Below are positions 36,076 to 45,384 of a stretch of 64,000 bases of DNA, one piece after another. The position numbers and the translations under genes were made by a program. The DNA is from Kineococcus mangrovi (GTDB taxonomy: Bacteria; Actinomycetota; Actinomycetes; Actinomycetales; Kineococcaceae). Within the stretch, counting starts at the first letter, position 1; each line of letters starts with the position of its first letter. The stretch spans positions 248,001-312,000 of the forward strand of contig NZ_JBGGTQ010000004.1 of the NCBI RefSeq assembly GCF_041320705.1. The letters are read 5' to 3'. The notes below the pieces were generated by a model that was not told the origin of the DNA, made no database searches, and worked only from the letters and a program-made list of their open reading frames with translations.

Positions 36076-39957
<3,882 letters not shown>

Positions 39958-39968
39958 CGCCGGTCCGG

Positions 39969-40004
39969 GCCGCCCCCTCCTCCCTCGCCGGGGGAGGGGG
40001 CGGC
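39969..40004 (+). terminator. Terminator after rpoC
   Basis: Arms GCCGCCCCCTCC (39969-39980) and GGAGGGGGCGGC (39993-40004) form a perfect 12-base-pair stem 11 bases after the rpoC stop. It ends the polymerase operon ahead of the str promoter. Confidence 0.8.
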
Positions 40005-40040
40005 CCCCTCGCGGGCCCTCACCGCCGGTGTGCGCCCGTT

Positions 40041-40070
40041 TTGACCACTCAGCAACAGCGCGGGTAGTCT
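40041..40070 (+). promoter_or_regulatory. str operon (rpsL) promoter
   Basis: TTGACC (40041-40046) and TAGTCT (40065-40070) are separated by 18 bases, the best housekeeping promoter in the window. Transcription starting near 40077 would give a leader of about 170 bases containing the element at 40141-40165. Confidence 0.75.
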
Positions 40071-40140
40071 CGTGTCCGCTTGACACGAGCGCGCCCGCGA
40101 CCAGGTGACAGGACGTCACTCCTGCGGGACCTCGACCGAA

Positions 40141-40165
40141 CGACACGCCCGACCTCGTGGGTCGG
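40141..40165 (+). promoter_or_regulatory. Shared r-protein leader element, rpsL copy
   Basis: CGACACGCCCGACCTCG, one variable base (T here), then GGGTCGG. The same 25-base element, differing only at the variable base, lies before rpsJ (44979-45003). CCGACC and GGTCGG pair around a five-base loop. It ends 80 bases before the rpsL start. A second bulged hairpin (40176-40199) follows. I do not recognise it as a named RNA family. Confidence 0.6.
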
Positions 40166-40245
40166 CGGGGGTCGAGCGCCAGCCCACGACGGGCGGCGCG
40201 TTCCCAGGACAGCCGAACCACCAGATCGAGACAGACGGAGACAGG

Positions 40246-40620
40246 GTGCCCACCATCCAGCAGCTGGTCCGCAAGGGCCGGGAGGACAAGGTCGTCAAGA
40301 CCAAGACGCCCGCCCTCAAGGGCAGCCCGCAGCGCCGTGGCGTGTGCACGCGCGTGTACACCACGACGCCGAAGAAGCCGAACTCGGCGCTGCGCAAGGT
40401 CGCTCGCGTGAAGCTGACCAGCGGCATCGAGGTCACGGCCTACATCCCCGGCGTGGGTCACAACCTGCAGGAGCACTCGATGGTCCTGGTCCGCGGTGGC
40501 CGCGTGAAGGACCTGCCGGGTGTCCGCTACAAGATCGTCCGCGGGTCGCTCGACACGCAGGGCGTGAAGAACCGCAAGCAGGCGCGCAGCCGCTACGGCG
40601 CGAAGAAGGAGAAGAGCTGA
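40246..40620 (+). CDS. rpsL: 30S ribosomal protein S12
   Basis: A 124-residue S12 of the decoding centre. The streptomycin-determining regions [19 protein letters not shown] and [16 protein letters not shown] are wild type (both key lysines present), and [10 protein letters not shown] is conserved. The GTG at 40246 follows GGAG with five intervening bases. It is the first gene of the str operon rpsL-rpsG-fusA-tuf and lies one base before rpsG. Confidence 0.98.
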
Positions 40621-40621
40621 C

Positions 40622-41092
40622 ATGCCGCGCAAGGGCCCCGCACCCAAGCGTCCCCTCGTGGTGGACCCCGTCTACCAGTCCCCGCTGGTGACGCAGCTCG
40701 TCAACAAGATCCTCCTCGACGGCAAGAAGTCCGTCGCCGAGTCGATCGTGTACGGCGCCCTCGAGGGTGCCCGCGACAAGACCGGTGGCGACCCCGTCGT
40801 CGTGCTGAAGCGTGCGCTCGACAACGTCAAGCCCGCGATCGAGGTCAAGTCCCGCCGCGTCGGCGGCTCGACTTACCAGGTGCCCATCGAGGTGCGCCCG
40901 AGCCGTTCCACGACGCTGGCCCTGCGCTGGCTCGTCGGCTACGCCCGGCAGCGCCGCGAGAAGACGATGACCGAGCGTCTGCTCAACGAGATCCTCGACG
41001 CCTCGAACGGTCTCGGTGCCGCGGTGAAGCGCCGCGAGGACACGCACAAGATGGCCGAGTCGAACCGGGCCTTCGCGCACTACCGCTGGTGA
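40622..41092 (+). CDS. rpsG: 30S ribosomal protein S7
   Basis: A 156-residue S7, which starts assembly of the 30S head and contacts the E site. The start [20 protein letters not shown] and the segments [39 protein letters not shown] and [13 protein letters not shown] are standard. In E. coli S7 represses the str operon by binding the rpsL-rpsG gap. Here that gap is one base, so such a site cannot exist in the same place. Confidence 0.98.
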
Positions 41093-41154
41093 CCCCGGCG
41101 GTGAGCTGCGCTCGCCGTTCCACCCCCTCGATCCCAGGGAAGAGGCAGTAAACC

Positions 41155-43257
41155 GTGGCACAGGACGTGCTGACGGACCTGACCAAGGTCCGCAACATCG
41201 GCATCATGGCGCACATCGACGCCGGCAAGACCACGACGACGGAGCGGATCCTCTTCTACACGGGGATCAACTACAAGATCGGCGAGGTCCACGACGGCGC
41301 GGCCACGATGGACTGGATGGAGCAGGAGCAGGAGCGGGGGATCACCATCACCTCCGCCGCCACCACCTGCTTCTGGGAAGGCACCCAGATCAACATCATC
41401 GACACGCCCGGCCACGTCGACTTCACGGTCGAGGTCGAGCGGTCCCTGCGCGTCCTCGACGGTGCTGTCGCCGTCTTCGACGGCAAGGAGGGTGTCGAGC
41501 CCCAGTCCGAGACCGTGTGGCGGCAGGCGGACAAGTACGACGTCCCGCGCATCTGCTTCGTCAACAAGATGGACAAGCTGGGCGCCGACTTCTACTTCAC
41601 GGTGAAGACCATCGTCGAGCGCCTCGGCGCCGAGCCGCTGGTCATGCAGATCCCGATCGGGGCCGAGAACGACTTCCTCGGCGTCGTCGACCTGGTGTAC
41701 ATGCGCGCGCTGACCTGGCGCGGCGACACCGCCAAGGGCGAGGCGTACGAGAAGGAGGACATCCCGGCCGAGCTGCAGGAGACGGCCGAGGAGTACCGCA
41801 CCAAGCTGCTCGAGCGCGTCGCCGAGACCGACGAGGCGCTGCTCGAGAAGTACCTGGGCGGCGAGGAGATCTCCCCCGAGGAGATCAAGGCGGCCGTCCG
41901 CAAGCTCACGATCGCCAGCGAGGTCTACCCGATCTTCTGCGGCTCCGCGTTCAAGAACAAGGGCGTGCAGCCCATGCTCGACGCGGTCCTGGACTACCTG
42001 CCCTCCCCGCTCGACGTGAAGCCGATGATCGGCCACAAGGTCGGCGACGAGTCGGTCGAGATCTTGCGCAAGCCGGACTCCACCGAGCCGTTCTCCGCCC
42101 TGGCGTTCAAGGTCGCGGCGCACCCGTTCTTCGGGAAGCTCACCTACGTGCGCGTCTACTCGGGCGTCGTCTCCGCCGGCTCGCAGGTCGTGAACTCGAC
42201 CAAGGGCAAGAAGGAGCGCATCGGGAAGCTCTTCCAGATGCACTCCAACAAGGAGAACCCGGTCGACGAGGCTCGCGCGGGCCACATCTACGCGATGATC
42301 GGCCTGAAGGAGACGACGACGGGCGACACGTTGTCCGACCCGGCGCAGCAGGTCGTCCTCGAGTCGATGACCTTCCCCGAGCCCGTCATCTCGGTCGCCA
42401 TCGAGCCGAAGACGAAGGGCGACCAGGAGAAGCTGGGCACCGCGATCCAGCGCCTGGCCGAGGAGGACCCGACCTTCCAGGTCGAGCTCGACCAGGAGAC
42501 CGGCCAGACCATCATCAAGGGGATGGGCGAGCTCCACCTCGACATCCTCGTGGACCGCATGAAGCGCGAGTTCAAGGTCGAGGCCAACGTCGGCAAGCCG
42601 CAGGTCGCCTACCGCGAGACCATCCGCCGGGCGGTGCTCAAGGAGGACTACACCCACAAGAAGCAGACGGGTGGGTCCGGCCAGTACGCGAAGGTCCAGG
42701 TCTCGATCGAGCCCCTGGACACCACCGACGGGACGTTCTACGAGTTCGTCAACGCCGTCACCGGTGGTCGTGTGCCGCGCGAGTACATCCCCTCGGTGGA
42801 CAACGGGATCCAGGAGGCCATGCAGGAAGGTGTCGTCGCCGGCTACCCGCTGGTCGGCATCAAGGCCTCCCTCGTCGACGGTGCGGCGCACGACGTCGAC
42901 TCGTCCGAGATGGCCTTCAAGATCGCCGGCAAGATGGTCCTGCGCGAGGCTGTCCGCAAGGCGCAGCCCGTGCTGCTCGAGCCGGTCATGGCCGTCGAGG
43001 TGCGCACGCCCGCCGACTACATGGGCGAAGTCATCGGCGACCTGAACTCCCGCCGTGGGCAGATCGAGTCCATGGAGGACGTCAGCGGGGCCAAGCTCGT
43101 CAAGGCCGCCGTCCCGCTGTCGGAGATGTTCGGCTACGTCGGGGACCTCCGGTCCAAGACCCAGGGCCGCGCGGTCTACTCGATGCAGTTCCAGAACTAC
43201 GCCGAGGTGCCGCGCAACGTCGCGGACGAGATCGTGAAGAAGGTCCGCGGGGAGTGA
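41155..43257 (+). CDS. fusA: Elongation factor G
   Basis: A 700-residue EF-G, the GTPase that drives translocation and, with RRF, ribosome recycling. G1 is [19 protein letters not shown], switch II is DTPGHVDF, and G4 is [10 protein letters not shown]. Domain II onward shows [20 protein letters not shown], and domain IV has [15 protein letters not shown] and [18 protein letters not shown]. The long fusA form rather than a fusidic-acid-resistance paralogue is clear. It starts on GTG with GGGAAGAGG upstream. The 170-base gap to tuf holds a hairpin. Confidence 0.98.
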
Positions 43258-43275
43258 CCCGCTCCTGACACACCC

Positions 43276-43318
43276 GGGGGAGCGGTCCGCGAAGCCGTTG
43301 CCAGCAGACCGCTTCCCC
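43276..43318 (+). other. Hairpin in the fusA-tuf gap
   Basis: Arms GGGGGAGCGGTC (43276-43287) and GACCGCTTCCCC (43307-43318) form a 12-base-pair stem with one G-T pair and a 19-base loop. It may partly terminate or process the str transcript, leaving tuf with its own level of expression. No clear promoter is visible between it and tuf. Confidence 0.5.
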
Positions 43319-43427
43319 ACGGCACGACCCCTGGACCACCGCCGTGTGGGCCAGTGACCAGCCAGGTCACCCACCCACCCGTTGAGAACCGGGTCGGGAA
43401 GAAACGACAGTCCGAGGAGGACCCCCA

Positions 43428-44621
43428 GTGGCGAAGGCGAAGTTCGAGCGGACCAAGCCGCACGTCAACATCGGCACGATCGGTCACATCGACCACGGGA
43501 AGACGACGTTGACCGCGGCGATCACCCGCGTGCTGCACGACAAGTTCCCGGAGCTCAACAAGGCTTCGGCGTTCGACCAGATCGACAAGGCCCCTGAAGA
43601 GCGTCAGCGCGGCATCACGATCTCGATCGCTCACGTCGAGTACCAGACCGAGGCGCGTCACTACGCCCACGTCGACTGCCCGGGTCACGCGGACTACATC
43701 AAGAACATGATCACGGGTGCGGCGCAGATGGACGGCGCCATCCTCGTGGTCGCGGCCACCGACGGCCCGATGCCGCAGACGAAGGAGCACGTCATCCTGG
43801 CCCGCCAGGTCGGCGTCCCCTACATCGTCGTCGCGCTGAACAAGGCCGACATGGTCGAGGACGAGGAGCTCCTCGAGCTCGTCGAGATGGAGGTGCGTGA
43901 GCTCCTCTCGTCCTACGAGTTCCCGGGCGACGACGTCCCCGTGGTCCGCGTCTCCGCGCTCAAGGCCCTCGAGGGCGACGCCGAGTGGGGCGACAAGCTC
44001 ATGGAGCTCATGAACGCGGTCGACACCGCGATCCCCGAGCCCGAGCGCGCCGTCGACCAGCCCTTCCTCATGCCGATCGAGGACGTCTTCACGATCACCG
44101 GCCGCGGCACCGTCGTGACCGGCCGCATCGAGCGCGGTGTCCTGAACGTCAACCAGGAGGTCGAGATCGTCGGCATCAAGCCGACGTCCTCGAAGACCAC
44201 CGTCACCAGCATCGAGATGTTCAACAAGATGCTGGACTCCGGCCAGGCCGGCGACAACGCCGCCCTGCTGCTGCGTGGTCTCAAGCGTGACGACGTCGAG
44301 CGCGGCCAGGTCGTGACCAAGCCGAACTCGATCACCCCGCACACCGAGTTCGAGGGTCAGGCCTACATCCTGTCCAAGGACGAGGGTGGCCGTCACACGC
44401 CCTTCTACAACAACTACCGTCCGCAGTTCTACTTCCGGACGACCGACGTCACGGGCGTCGTCTCGCTGCCCGAGGGCACCGAGATGGTCATGCCCGGTGA
44501 CAACACCGAGATGAAGGTCGACCTCATCCAGCCCATCGCGATGGAAGAGGGTCTGAAGTTCGCGATCCGTGAGGGTGGCCGCACCGTCGGCGCCGGTCGG
44601 GTCACGAAGATCATCAAGTGA
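43428..44621 (+). CDS. tuf: Elongation factor Tu
   Basis: A 397-residue EF-Tu, which brings aminoacyl-tRNA to the ribosome. G1 is [18 protein letters not shown], switch II is [21 protein letters not shown]4 is NKADMV, and the tRNA-binding [20 protein letters not shown] is intact. Positions where kirromycin or pulvomycin resistance arises look wild type by eye. It starts on GTG with GAGGAGG upstream. Two tandem hairpins follow the stop. Confidence 0.98.
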
Positions 44622-44627
44622 GTCGAG

Positions 44628-44657
44628 CCGCCGCGGGGGAGTGATCCCCCGCGGCGG
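44628..44657 (+). terminator. First terminator after tuf
   Basis: Arms CCGCCGCGGGGGA (44628-44640) and TCCCCCGCGGCGG (44645-44657) form a perfect 13-base-pair stem with a GTGA loop, seven bases after the tuf stop. Confidence 0.8.
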
Positions 44658-44670
44658 AACGCTCGCCACG

Positions 44671-44704
44671 CGAAGGGGCGGGTCCTCCTGGACCCGCCCC
44701 TTCG
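44671..44704 (+). terminator. Second terminator after tuf
   Basis: Arms CGAAGGGGCGGGTCC (44671-44685) and GGACCCGCCCCTTCG (44690-44704) form a perfect 15-base-pair stem with a TCCT loop. It backs up the first terminator and cleanly separates the str and S10 operons. Confidence 0.8.
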
Positions 44705-44744
44705 TCGTGGGCGAGCCGCCCAGCACCGGTACGCCGCTGCTCGA

Positions 44745-44775
44745 TTCGCCAAGGGACGCCTCCGTCTGGCACACT
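44745..44775 (+). promoter_or_regulatory. Candidate S10 operon promoter
   Basis: The 371 bases after the tuf terminators carry no credible gene. TTCGCC (44745-44750) and CACACT (44770-44775), the latter preceded by TGG, are 19 bases apart and could start a leader of about 295 bases that includes the element at 44979-45003. Support is weak. Confidence 0.3.
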
Positions 44776-44978
44776 GTCGGGGTTGCTGCGCCGCTGGACC
44801 GCGCCTGGATCACGATTCCACCCGATCCGGGGACCGGGTCAGAGCACCGGCCCGCAACCGCGAACGTCGAACGTCTCGGACGGGCGGCGAACGGTTCACC
44901 TGGACCTCCAGGGCAACCTGAACAGGACGACAGGACCACACCGGGCAACCGGGTGAGGGTGCAGAACGTGCGAAAGCG

Positions 44979-45003
44979 CGACACGCCCGACCTCGGGGGT
45001 CGG
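44979..45003 (+). promoter_or_regulatory. Shared r-protein leader element, rpsJ copy
   Basis: CGACACGCCCGACCTCG, variable base G, then GGGTCGG: 24 of 25 bases identical to the rpsL copy at 40141-40165. CCGACC pairs with GGTCGG around a five-base loop. It ends 72 bases before the rpsJ start, against 80 for rpsL. Flanking sequence outside the element is not conserved between the two leaders beyond chance, which argues for selection on the element itself. Confidence 0.6.
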
Positions 45004-45075
45004 GGCCTCACCACACGGGGCTCCGCGCCGCGCGCGAGTCAGTAGCGGTACGAAGAGAGAGAGTCAGACGACGCC

Positions 45076-45384
45076 ATGGCGGGACAGAAGATCCGCATCA
45101 GGCTCAAGGCCTACGACCACGAGGTCATCGACAGCTCGGCGCGCAAGATCGTCGACACGGTGACCCGCACTGGTGCTTCGGTCGCAGGGCCCGTGCCGCT
45201 GCCGACCGAGAAGAACGTCTACTGCGTCATCCGCTCGCCGCACAAGTACAAGGACAGCCGCGAGCACTTCGAGATGCGGACGCACAAGCGTCTCATCGAC
45301 ATCATCGACCCGACGCCGAAGACCGTCGACTCGCTCATGCGGCTCGACCTGCCGGCCGGGGTCGACATCGAGATCAAGCTCTGA
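45076..45384 (+). CDS. rpsJ: 30S ribosomal protein S10
   Basis: A 102-residue S10 of the 30S head. S10 also pairs with NusB in antitermination and binds NusG in transcription-translation coupling. Landmarks are [40 protein letters not shown] and [13 protein letters not shown]. It starts on ATG with GAGAGAGAG upstream. It is the first gene of the S10 operon, and rplC follows 13 bases later. Confidence 0.98.

Follow-up and report, generated by a model that had tools for sequence, protein, structure and literature searches.

A conserved leader element common to the str and S10 operons of Actinomycetes as a putative signal for their joint control

How the synthesis of ribosomal proteins (r-proteins) is kept in balance remains largely open in actinobacteria. 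Two of the sources used below, PMC7247131 and PMC2965389, are Eckert and Weinberg (2020) and Naville and Gautheret (2010), respectively. A 2024 review regrets that control by uS7 has gone unstudied beyond a few phyla (PMC10931766). Here we analyze a 25-base element that stands before rpsL and again before rpsJ, that is, in the str and S10 operon leaders, in a 64,000-nucleotide stretch of the genome of Kineococcus mangrovi (contig NZ_JBGGTQ010000004.1, positions 248,001 to 312,000 of the forward strand), referred to as the window. The element recurs at these leaders in most of the genomes of class Actinomycetes that we surveyed, and it may be a signal through which both operons are controlled together.

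Several described systems resemble this element in part. In Escherichia coli, uS7 represses the str operon, the same operon and the role that we propose for the element, from a site between rpsL and rpsG (PMC10931766); in Actinomycetes, however, the gap between these genes has a median of -1 nucleotide (nt). The S10 operon of E. coli is also controlled through its leader, by uL4, but that leader is long and structured and contains a Rho-independent attenuator (PMC10931766), whereas here the leader has no terminator-like site and the signal is common to str. The 'rpsL-leader' attenuators likewise stand before rpsL with a supposed feedback on str, but they are terminator/antiterminator devices from Listeria, Xanthomonas, Pseudomonas and Rickettsia with no common sequence (PMC2965389), whereas the element studied here comes without a terminator-like site and its sequence is almost fixed. 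The r-leaders are, like it, conserved cis elements in the 5' leaders of r-protein operons, each confined to one lineage; they are, however, defined by covarying structure (PMC7247131), whereas this element is conserved mainly in sequence and serves two operons. Finally, Candidatus Pelagibacter ubique has RNA structures that resemble each other before rpsL and before fusA (cited in PMC2965389); there, too, one element is placed at two r-operon sites, but in a different phylum and at different targets.

As for actinobacteria, no rpsL or rpsJ element is named in the accessible portions of PMC7247131 (Table 1), PMC2864571, PMC2965389 and PMC6429828; the first of these lists 20 motifs, among which Actinobacteria are represented by L17 and L31 alone and not by any motif preceding rpsL or rpsJ. 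A Streptomyces Term-seq study mentions premature units produced by r-protein leaders, none of them named as rpsL or rpsJ in its accessible text (PMC8269248). Neither a description of the element nor its 14-mer in print was found in the literature searched, of which subscription papers and supplements were mostly beyond reach. Searching the window with Rfam 15 returned only transfer RNAs at the gathering score, and at expectation values (E) of up to 5 only sub-threshold matches, all off the element; an earlier note on this DNA, made from the sequence alone, had likewise not recognized a named RNA family. Within the literature searched, the element appears to be previously undescribed.

Two copies in the window

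The element and the genes behind it are placed as follows.

40141-40165, + strand: element copy 1, CGACACGCCCGACCTCGTGGGTCGG, in the str operon leader; conserved core 40141-40159; exact match, profile E 4.2e-7
44979-45003, + strand: element copy 2, CGACACGCCCGACCTCGGGGGTCGG, in the S10 operon leader; conserved core 44979-44997; exact match, profile E 1.0e-7
40246-40620, + strand: rpsL (S12), open reading frame (ORF), first gene behind copy 1; protein used as query
40622-41092, + strand: rpsG (S7), ORF, starting one base past the rpsL stop
41155-43257: fusA, ORF of the str operon
43428-44621: tuf, ORF of the str operon
45076-45384, + strand: rpsJ (S10), ORF, first gene behind copy 2, in the S10 operon; protein used as query

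The gene names (rpsL, rpsG, fusA, tuf and rpsJ) follow the protein families to which the ORFs presumably belong. The two copies are identical at 24 of 25 positions, base 18 being the sole difference, and they end 80 bases before the GTG of rpsL at 40246 and 72 bases before the ATG of rpsJ at 45076, just as the earlier note had described. That note had also called the two operons unlinked, which is wrong: the str operon (rpsL-rpsG-fusA-tuf) is followed directly by the S10 operon, and the copies lie 4.8 kb apart.

Allowing up to three mismatches, a scan of the window recovered both copies and no others, and nothing was found in 100 dinucleotide-preserving shuffles of it. The whole genome (4.36 Mb) has one additional site, at three mismatches. 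We also used a profile, R1, built from 113 distinct element copies, from which the weak rpsJ matches of L064, L066 and L068, as well as L104, which is not an actinobacterium, were left out; on this genome, the next site after the two copies reached only E 0.028 or worse. By pattern and by profile R1, there is thus no convincing third site in the genome.

Spread and sequence constraint

To state how widespread the element is, we relied on sets of genomes not picked for having it: the genomes of L113-L172 were chosen for a pattern match and most later loci for a profile match, so presence rates come solely from a survey of 197 class genomes and from loci fetched by protein. First, in the 197 evenly drawn genomes, surveyed with R1 under stricter filters that lose weak matches, the element was found in 179, or in 162 if only the 173 best assemblies are counted, and no genome with a match had more than two; a first pattern search had matched 175. 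Second, of 39 protein-fetched loci whose leader could be read and whose title did not point to another class or phylum, 27 carry the element before rpsL, and four of the remaining 12 carry one before rpsJ in the same locus. Third, matches were seen in 13 of 16 named genomes (Streptomyces, Mycolicibacterium, Gordonia, Nocardioides and others), where all 22 with E <= 0.0013 are located before rpsL or rpsJ. The same holds for 67 of 69 further loci around matches, neither gene being on the stretch in the other two (L386 and L398). Conservation in the class together with specificity for such leaders, as expected of an r-leader, is therefore what the survey and the 16 named genomes give. The enrichment before rpsL and rpsJ that the earlier note would have counted as support is seen among strong matches, and the scatter over random genome positions that it would have counted against the element is not.

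Outside the class, none of 46 rpsL/rpsJ leaders from other phyla, in loci fetched solely for encoding rpsL, and none of four Acidimicrobiia leaders contains the element. In a phylum-wide draw of 149 genomes, all matches with E below 8e-4 belong to Actinomycetes, and weak matches occur in 15 genomes outside it, two of them before rpsL; these two pointed the way to Nitriliruptoria. A variant, typically GCGGAACGCCCGGCCCCGTGGGTCGG, is present in 26 of 31 rpsL leaders of Nitriliruptoria (23 of 30 with a stricter pattern), a class assignment made through L249, which is 100% identical over 3363 bases to the Nitriliruptoria contig L069, both of them without the element themselves. None of ten Nitriliruptoria rpsJ leaders has it. 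In 26 genomes of this class there are 21 matches with E <= 0.0014, all before rpsL except one (G305, L197/L297; E 9e-4). As to possible third sites, 11 weaker matches were inspected, and every one of them overlaps an ORF of 80 or more codons on one of the two strands, which chance alone would produce in DNA of this kind.

What is conserved is mainly a sequence core. The consensus reads GCRMACRCCCG-N4-CGKG, usually continuing into a GGTCGG-like 3' half able to close a small stem. In 152 distinct copies, C8, C9, C10, G11, G17 and G19 are invariant, A5, C6 and C16 change once each, and positions 12-15 and 20-25 are variable, an invariance that is partly built in, as the collecting patterns fixed part of the core. 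We therefore omitted each position from the score in turn, using a profile derived from the same copies: the leaders that still score high enough number 216 of 258 in Actinomycetes and 26 of 30 in Nitriliruptoria, and in these bases 8-11, 17 and 19 are constant throughout, with A3 and C4 also fixed in Actinomycetes and T18 in Nitriliruptoria. The flanks show no comparable constraint, and loci with 43-50% G+C retain the G+C-rich element, so base composition does not explain it. The 3' half is better retained at rpsJ than at rpsL, with G at base 25 in 45 of 46 copies at the former and 26 of 46 at the latter.

The pairing potential, by which the earlier note had defined the element, follows a different pattern. 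CCGACC can pair with GGTCGG around five bases, as claimed, but many copies break this stem, whereas ACRCCCG and CGKG barely vary. In 113 Actinomycetes copies, 86.9% of the stem cells are paired, against 86.7% in shuffles (173 of 500 as high). When 22 Nitriliruptoria copies were combined with 54 from Actinomycetes, thinned to one per 25-mer (76 copies in all), pairing rose slightly above shuffles (80.3 vs 78.7; 7 of 500 shuffles reach the observed value), with 8 vs 5.2 cells changed on both sides (51 of 500) and 3 vs 2.1 pairs so changed (111 of 500). Among the 152 copies, pair 14-20 exceeds the shuffles (fraction 0.0235), but 13-21 (0.14) and 12-22 (0.88) do not. Paired changes do occur in Nitriliruptoria, namely CCGACA/TGTCGG in L248 and CCGACT/AGTCGG in L251, next to plain breaks in L254, L260 and L273. 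The alternative hairpin CCCG-N4-CGKG varies so little that covariation is uninformative there; 60 of 152 copies cannot form its C9-T18 pair. Predicted folds are of the CCGACC/GGTCGG type in 51 copies, of the CCCG-N4-CGKG type in 76 and of neither in 25; in the window, the local folds of the two copies are little better than those of shuffles (z of -1.5 and -0.7), and whole leaders and local pieces range from -0.6 to -1.5. Lack of stem covariation, which the earlier note held to speak against its proposal, is thus found in Actinomycetes, with a weak excess once Nitriliruptoria are added. We rejected the hairpin as the conserved feature, since pairing is at or slightly above the level of shuffles and a sequence core is fixed instead, and this partial failure of covariation moves the interpretation from structure to sequence. 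A small stem may exist within the element; on these alignments, recognition by sequence is better supported than recognition by structure.

Position and orientation relative to predicted promoters

Two predicted promoters precede the copies in the window.

40041-40070, + strand: predicted sigma-A-type str promoter, TTGACC-N18-TAGTCT, from our own scan, 70 bases before copy 1
44767-44775, + strand: extended -10 TGGCACACT, predicted for the S10 operon from a motif class that accompanies the element in relatives, about 200 bases before copy 2

A scan with a stricter consensus gave no promoter in either window leader, and both remain predictions. Across relatives, scanning for TTGACN-N17/18-TANNNT or close to it found a predicted promoter in 102 of 104 element-bearing rpsL leaders, and upstream of the element in 101 of them; the exception, L065, is a contig-end artefact that acts as a false leader in the promoter and reading-frame counts. 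As a control, the reverse complement scored in 28 of 145 leaders when rpsL and rpsJ are pooled. In rpsL leaders, the -10 and the element are 53 to 387 bases apart. At rpsJ, the same scan found a promoter in only 23 of 41 leaders. In tuf-rpsJ gaps shorter than 700 bases, an extended -10 (GGCATACT or TGGCACACT-like) is present in 22 of 26 with the element and in 0 of 27 without it, two of the latter from Acidimicrobiia; longer gaps, among them L064, L066 and L068, are excluded from this count, to which no probability is attached because related genomes are not independent. Transcription starting downstream of the element in both operons, a further result that the earlier note would have counted against itself, is contradicted as far as predicted promoters go.

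Behind element-free gaps, S10 probably relies on read-through from tuf. Strong G+C-rich inverted repeats lie right behind tuf in such gaps (e.g. L123, L124, L034, L035, L038 and L040), and these repeats, together with the missing promoter motif of the kind searched for, suggest read-through or processing into S10. The str leader, in turn, is likely the ancestral site of the element, since Nitriliruptoria have it at rpsL and not at rpsJ, and since S10 in Actinomycetes has it mostly where the operon has a promoter of its own.

The full pattern is found in the sense orientation in 239 leaders and in the antisense orientation in none. This bears on whether the inverted repeat CCGACC-N5-GGTCGG could be a DNA operator bound by a transcription factor, an idea that we regard as quite improbable. 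The dyad is of course present in the DNA too, and a looser core pattern also has opposite-strand matches (98 of 294 leaders, 97 of 288 in a recount); in the recount all of them coincide with the element, whose sequence is almost self-complementary at that place. Moreover, ResR/McdR controls the rplN operon through DNA binding (PMC10336103); the tested targets named in the accessible text of that study are whiB2 and rplN, not rpsL or rpsJ. Against an operator stand the single orientation of the full pattern, the varying distance, 53 to 387 bases, at which the element lies downstream of the predicted rpsL promoter, and the unequal halves of the repeat, the 5' one nearly invariant and the 3' one variable. 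In favor of an operator, four Microbacteriaceae (L063, L064, L066 and L068) have a 13-mer, CGACACGCCCGGG, directly at the -35 box of a predicted rpsJ promoter of the extended -10 type, TTGCAN-N17-CAAAMT. It lies about 330-420 bases before rpsJ, outside the predicted transcript, and L063 also has a normal leader copy; a relocated signal, or chance kept by descent, is possible.

Open frames with an upstream ATG or GTG are common in G+C-rich DNA, and the element could on that account be imagined as part of a conserved upstream peptide. However, the three frames through it are open about equally (159, 151 and 165 of 242), its distance to the start codon uses all three phases (73, 76 and 93), and the ORFs running through the copies in the window read the two in different frames. 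With no frame preference, the peptide was rejected as hardly credible.

Taken together, the location downstream of predicted promoters, the variable distance, the sense orientation and the lack of a preferred frame make it most likely that the element acts in the RNA of the str and S10 transcripts rather than as a DNA operator. An attenuator built on an intrinsic terminator was also rejected for rpsL and S10, as terminator-like sites (a hairpin followed by a T run) number zero in 39950-40250 and 44600-45080.

A putative feedback signal and its alternatives

We propose, with a confidence that falls just short of even, that the element acts in cis as RNA, within the 5' untranslated leaders of str and S10, where it is recognized mainly by its sequence, and that a single trans-acting RNA-binding factor would bind both leaders and thereby couple the two operons. 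This factor would most likely be an r-protein acting as a feedback repressor: when free r-protein is in excess over ribosomal RNA (rRNA), it would bind the leader, leading to less translation or less transcript completion, with uS7 or uS12 as the first candidate ligands. A common trans-acting factor, as suggested in the earlier note, would fit the class-wide conservation at two operons, and that interpretation as a whole is partly supported. That such an RNA signal is read by sequence throughout the class, one factor setting str and S10 in Actinomycetes and str in Nitriliruptoria, we place somewhat below even.

The arrangement of rpsL and rpsG is relevant here. In 177 partly redundant Actinomycetes loci, the stop and start codons overlap or nearly so, and the gap has a median of 2 nt in Nitriliruptoria and measures 1 nt in two Acidimicrobiia loci; in other phyla, the median is 79.5 nt (34 loci, nine of them with 30 or less). 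There is accordingly no room in Actinomycetes for an E. coli-type uS7 operator between the two genes, and in the window itself, where rpsG starts one base after the rpsL stop, an intercistronic operator does not fit. Control of str, if any, must lie elsewhere, for which the leader element is a natural place.

Several observations weigh against this proposal. First, loss of the gap is no proof, as the two Acidimicrobiia loci without it are also without the element. Second, the element is dispensable, to judge from the 18 of 197 class genomes in which no match reaches the cut-off, a single family accounting for six, and from two Microbacteriaceae and one Propionibacteriaceae among the 16 named genomes. 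Third, the Microbacteriaceae L064, L066 and L068 have a predicted rpsJ promoter yet no leader copy. Fourth, stem covariation is weak or absent. Fifth, leader families are described as imitating sites in rRNA (PMC2965389), whereas the whole element, scanned as 27-nt profiles over five rRNA stretches (one of them incomplete, and the first third of 16S outside the scan), stays within background, the nearest site being reached by 0.048 of background windows. Twin copies within a genome are closer than copies between genomes (2.80 vs 3.38 differences, 46 pairs), as would be expected under a common ligand, but this likeness may only reflect shared ancestry or base composition. It is for the lack of a clear rRNA likeness, and for the putative nature of the ligand, that we keep feedback through one common factor below one half.

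A weak lead concerns 5S rRNA. The 16-nt 5' half of the Nitriliruptoria form resembles GGGAAACGCCCGGUCC of 5S rRNA, with background fractions of 0-0.018 in three genomes and of 0.27 and 0.36 in two others, several sub-ranges having been tried; the Actinomycetes form has no 5S likeness. The 5S rRNA of Actinomycetes (L400, L402, L403 and L404) contains GGGAAACGCCCGG, which is similar to that 5' half as well, with weak and uneven significance. The K. mangrovi assembly itself has no match to 23S (large-subunit, LSU) rRNA, despite a completeness rating of 99.9%.

The strongest rival is a transcription elongation signal, namely a nut (boxA-boxB)-like site, or a NusG- or Nus-dependent site for pausing or against Rho, at which RNA polymerase would take up factors as it enters long r-protein operons. 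We give it a real, if clearly minor, chance. A free distance to promoter and start codon with a fixed orientation, a conserved, single-strand-like 5' part beside a small potential hairpin, and the association with promoter-led operons are all as such a signal would have them. However, no genome has more than two matches, which stand at rpsL or rpsJ where the context was inspected, and other long r-protein operons have none; the window leaders lack terminator-like sites; and no likeness to a known boxA was noticed, with no search made for that motif. It appears unlikely that another RNA-binding protein, a ribonuclease or a small RNA binds or processes the transcripts at the element and so sets messenger RNA stability: conservation in sequence rather than structure and a free leader position would suit such a site, but confinement to the str and S10 leaders is odd for a general nuclease or chaperone, and the scanned rRNA stretches, which did not cover small RNAs, hold no consistent complement.

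If reading by one common factor is correct, it would imply joint control of two r-operons, unlike the scheme of one operon and one repressor in E. coli, and would be a rare case of one leader signal common to two r-operons across a whole class. In any event, a 20-letter signal that hardly varies and is confined to the leaders of two operons offers a handle for mutation, for use as ligand bait and for reporters.

The rpsJ leader of L070 (Pauljensenia) has two copies of the element, at distances of 290 and 32 bases from the start codon. Additional conserved blocks, specific to lineages, occur in Streptomyces and Mycobacteriaceae-like leaders: in Streptomyces rpsJ leaders (L187, L190, L215 and others), a block GGACGTACGGGAATCTT-N-CGGGAAG lies upstream of the element, and blocks CGGGTTCCAGAGCG and GACAGGACTAC-N2-AGTAGCC adjoin the start codon, with few exceptions.

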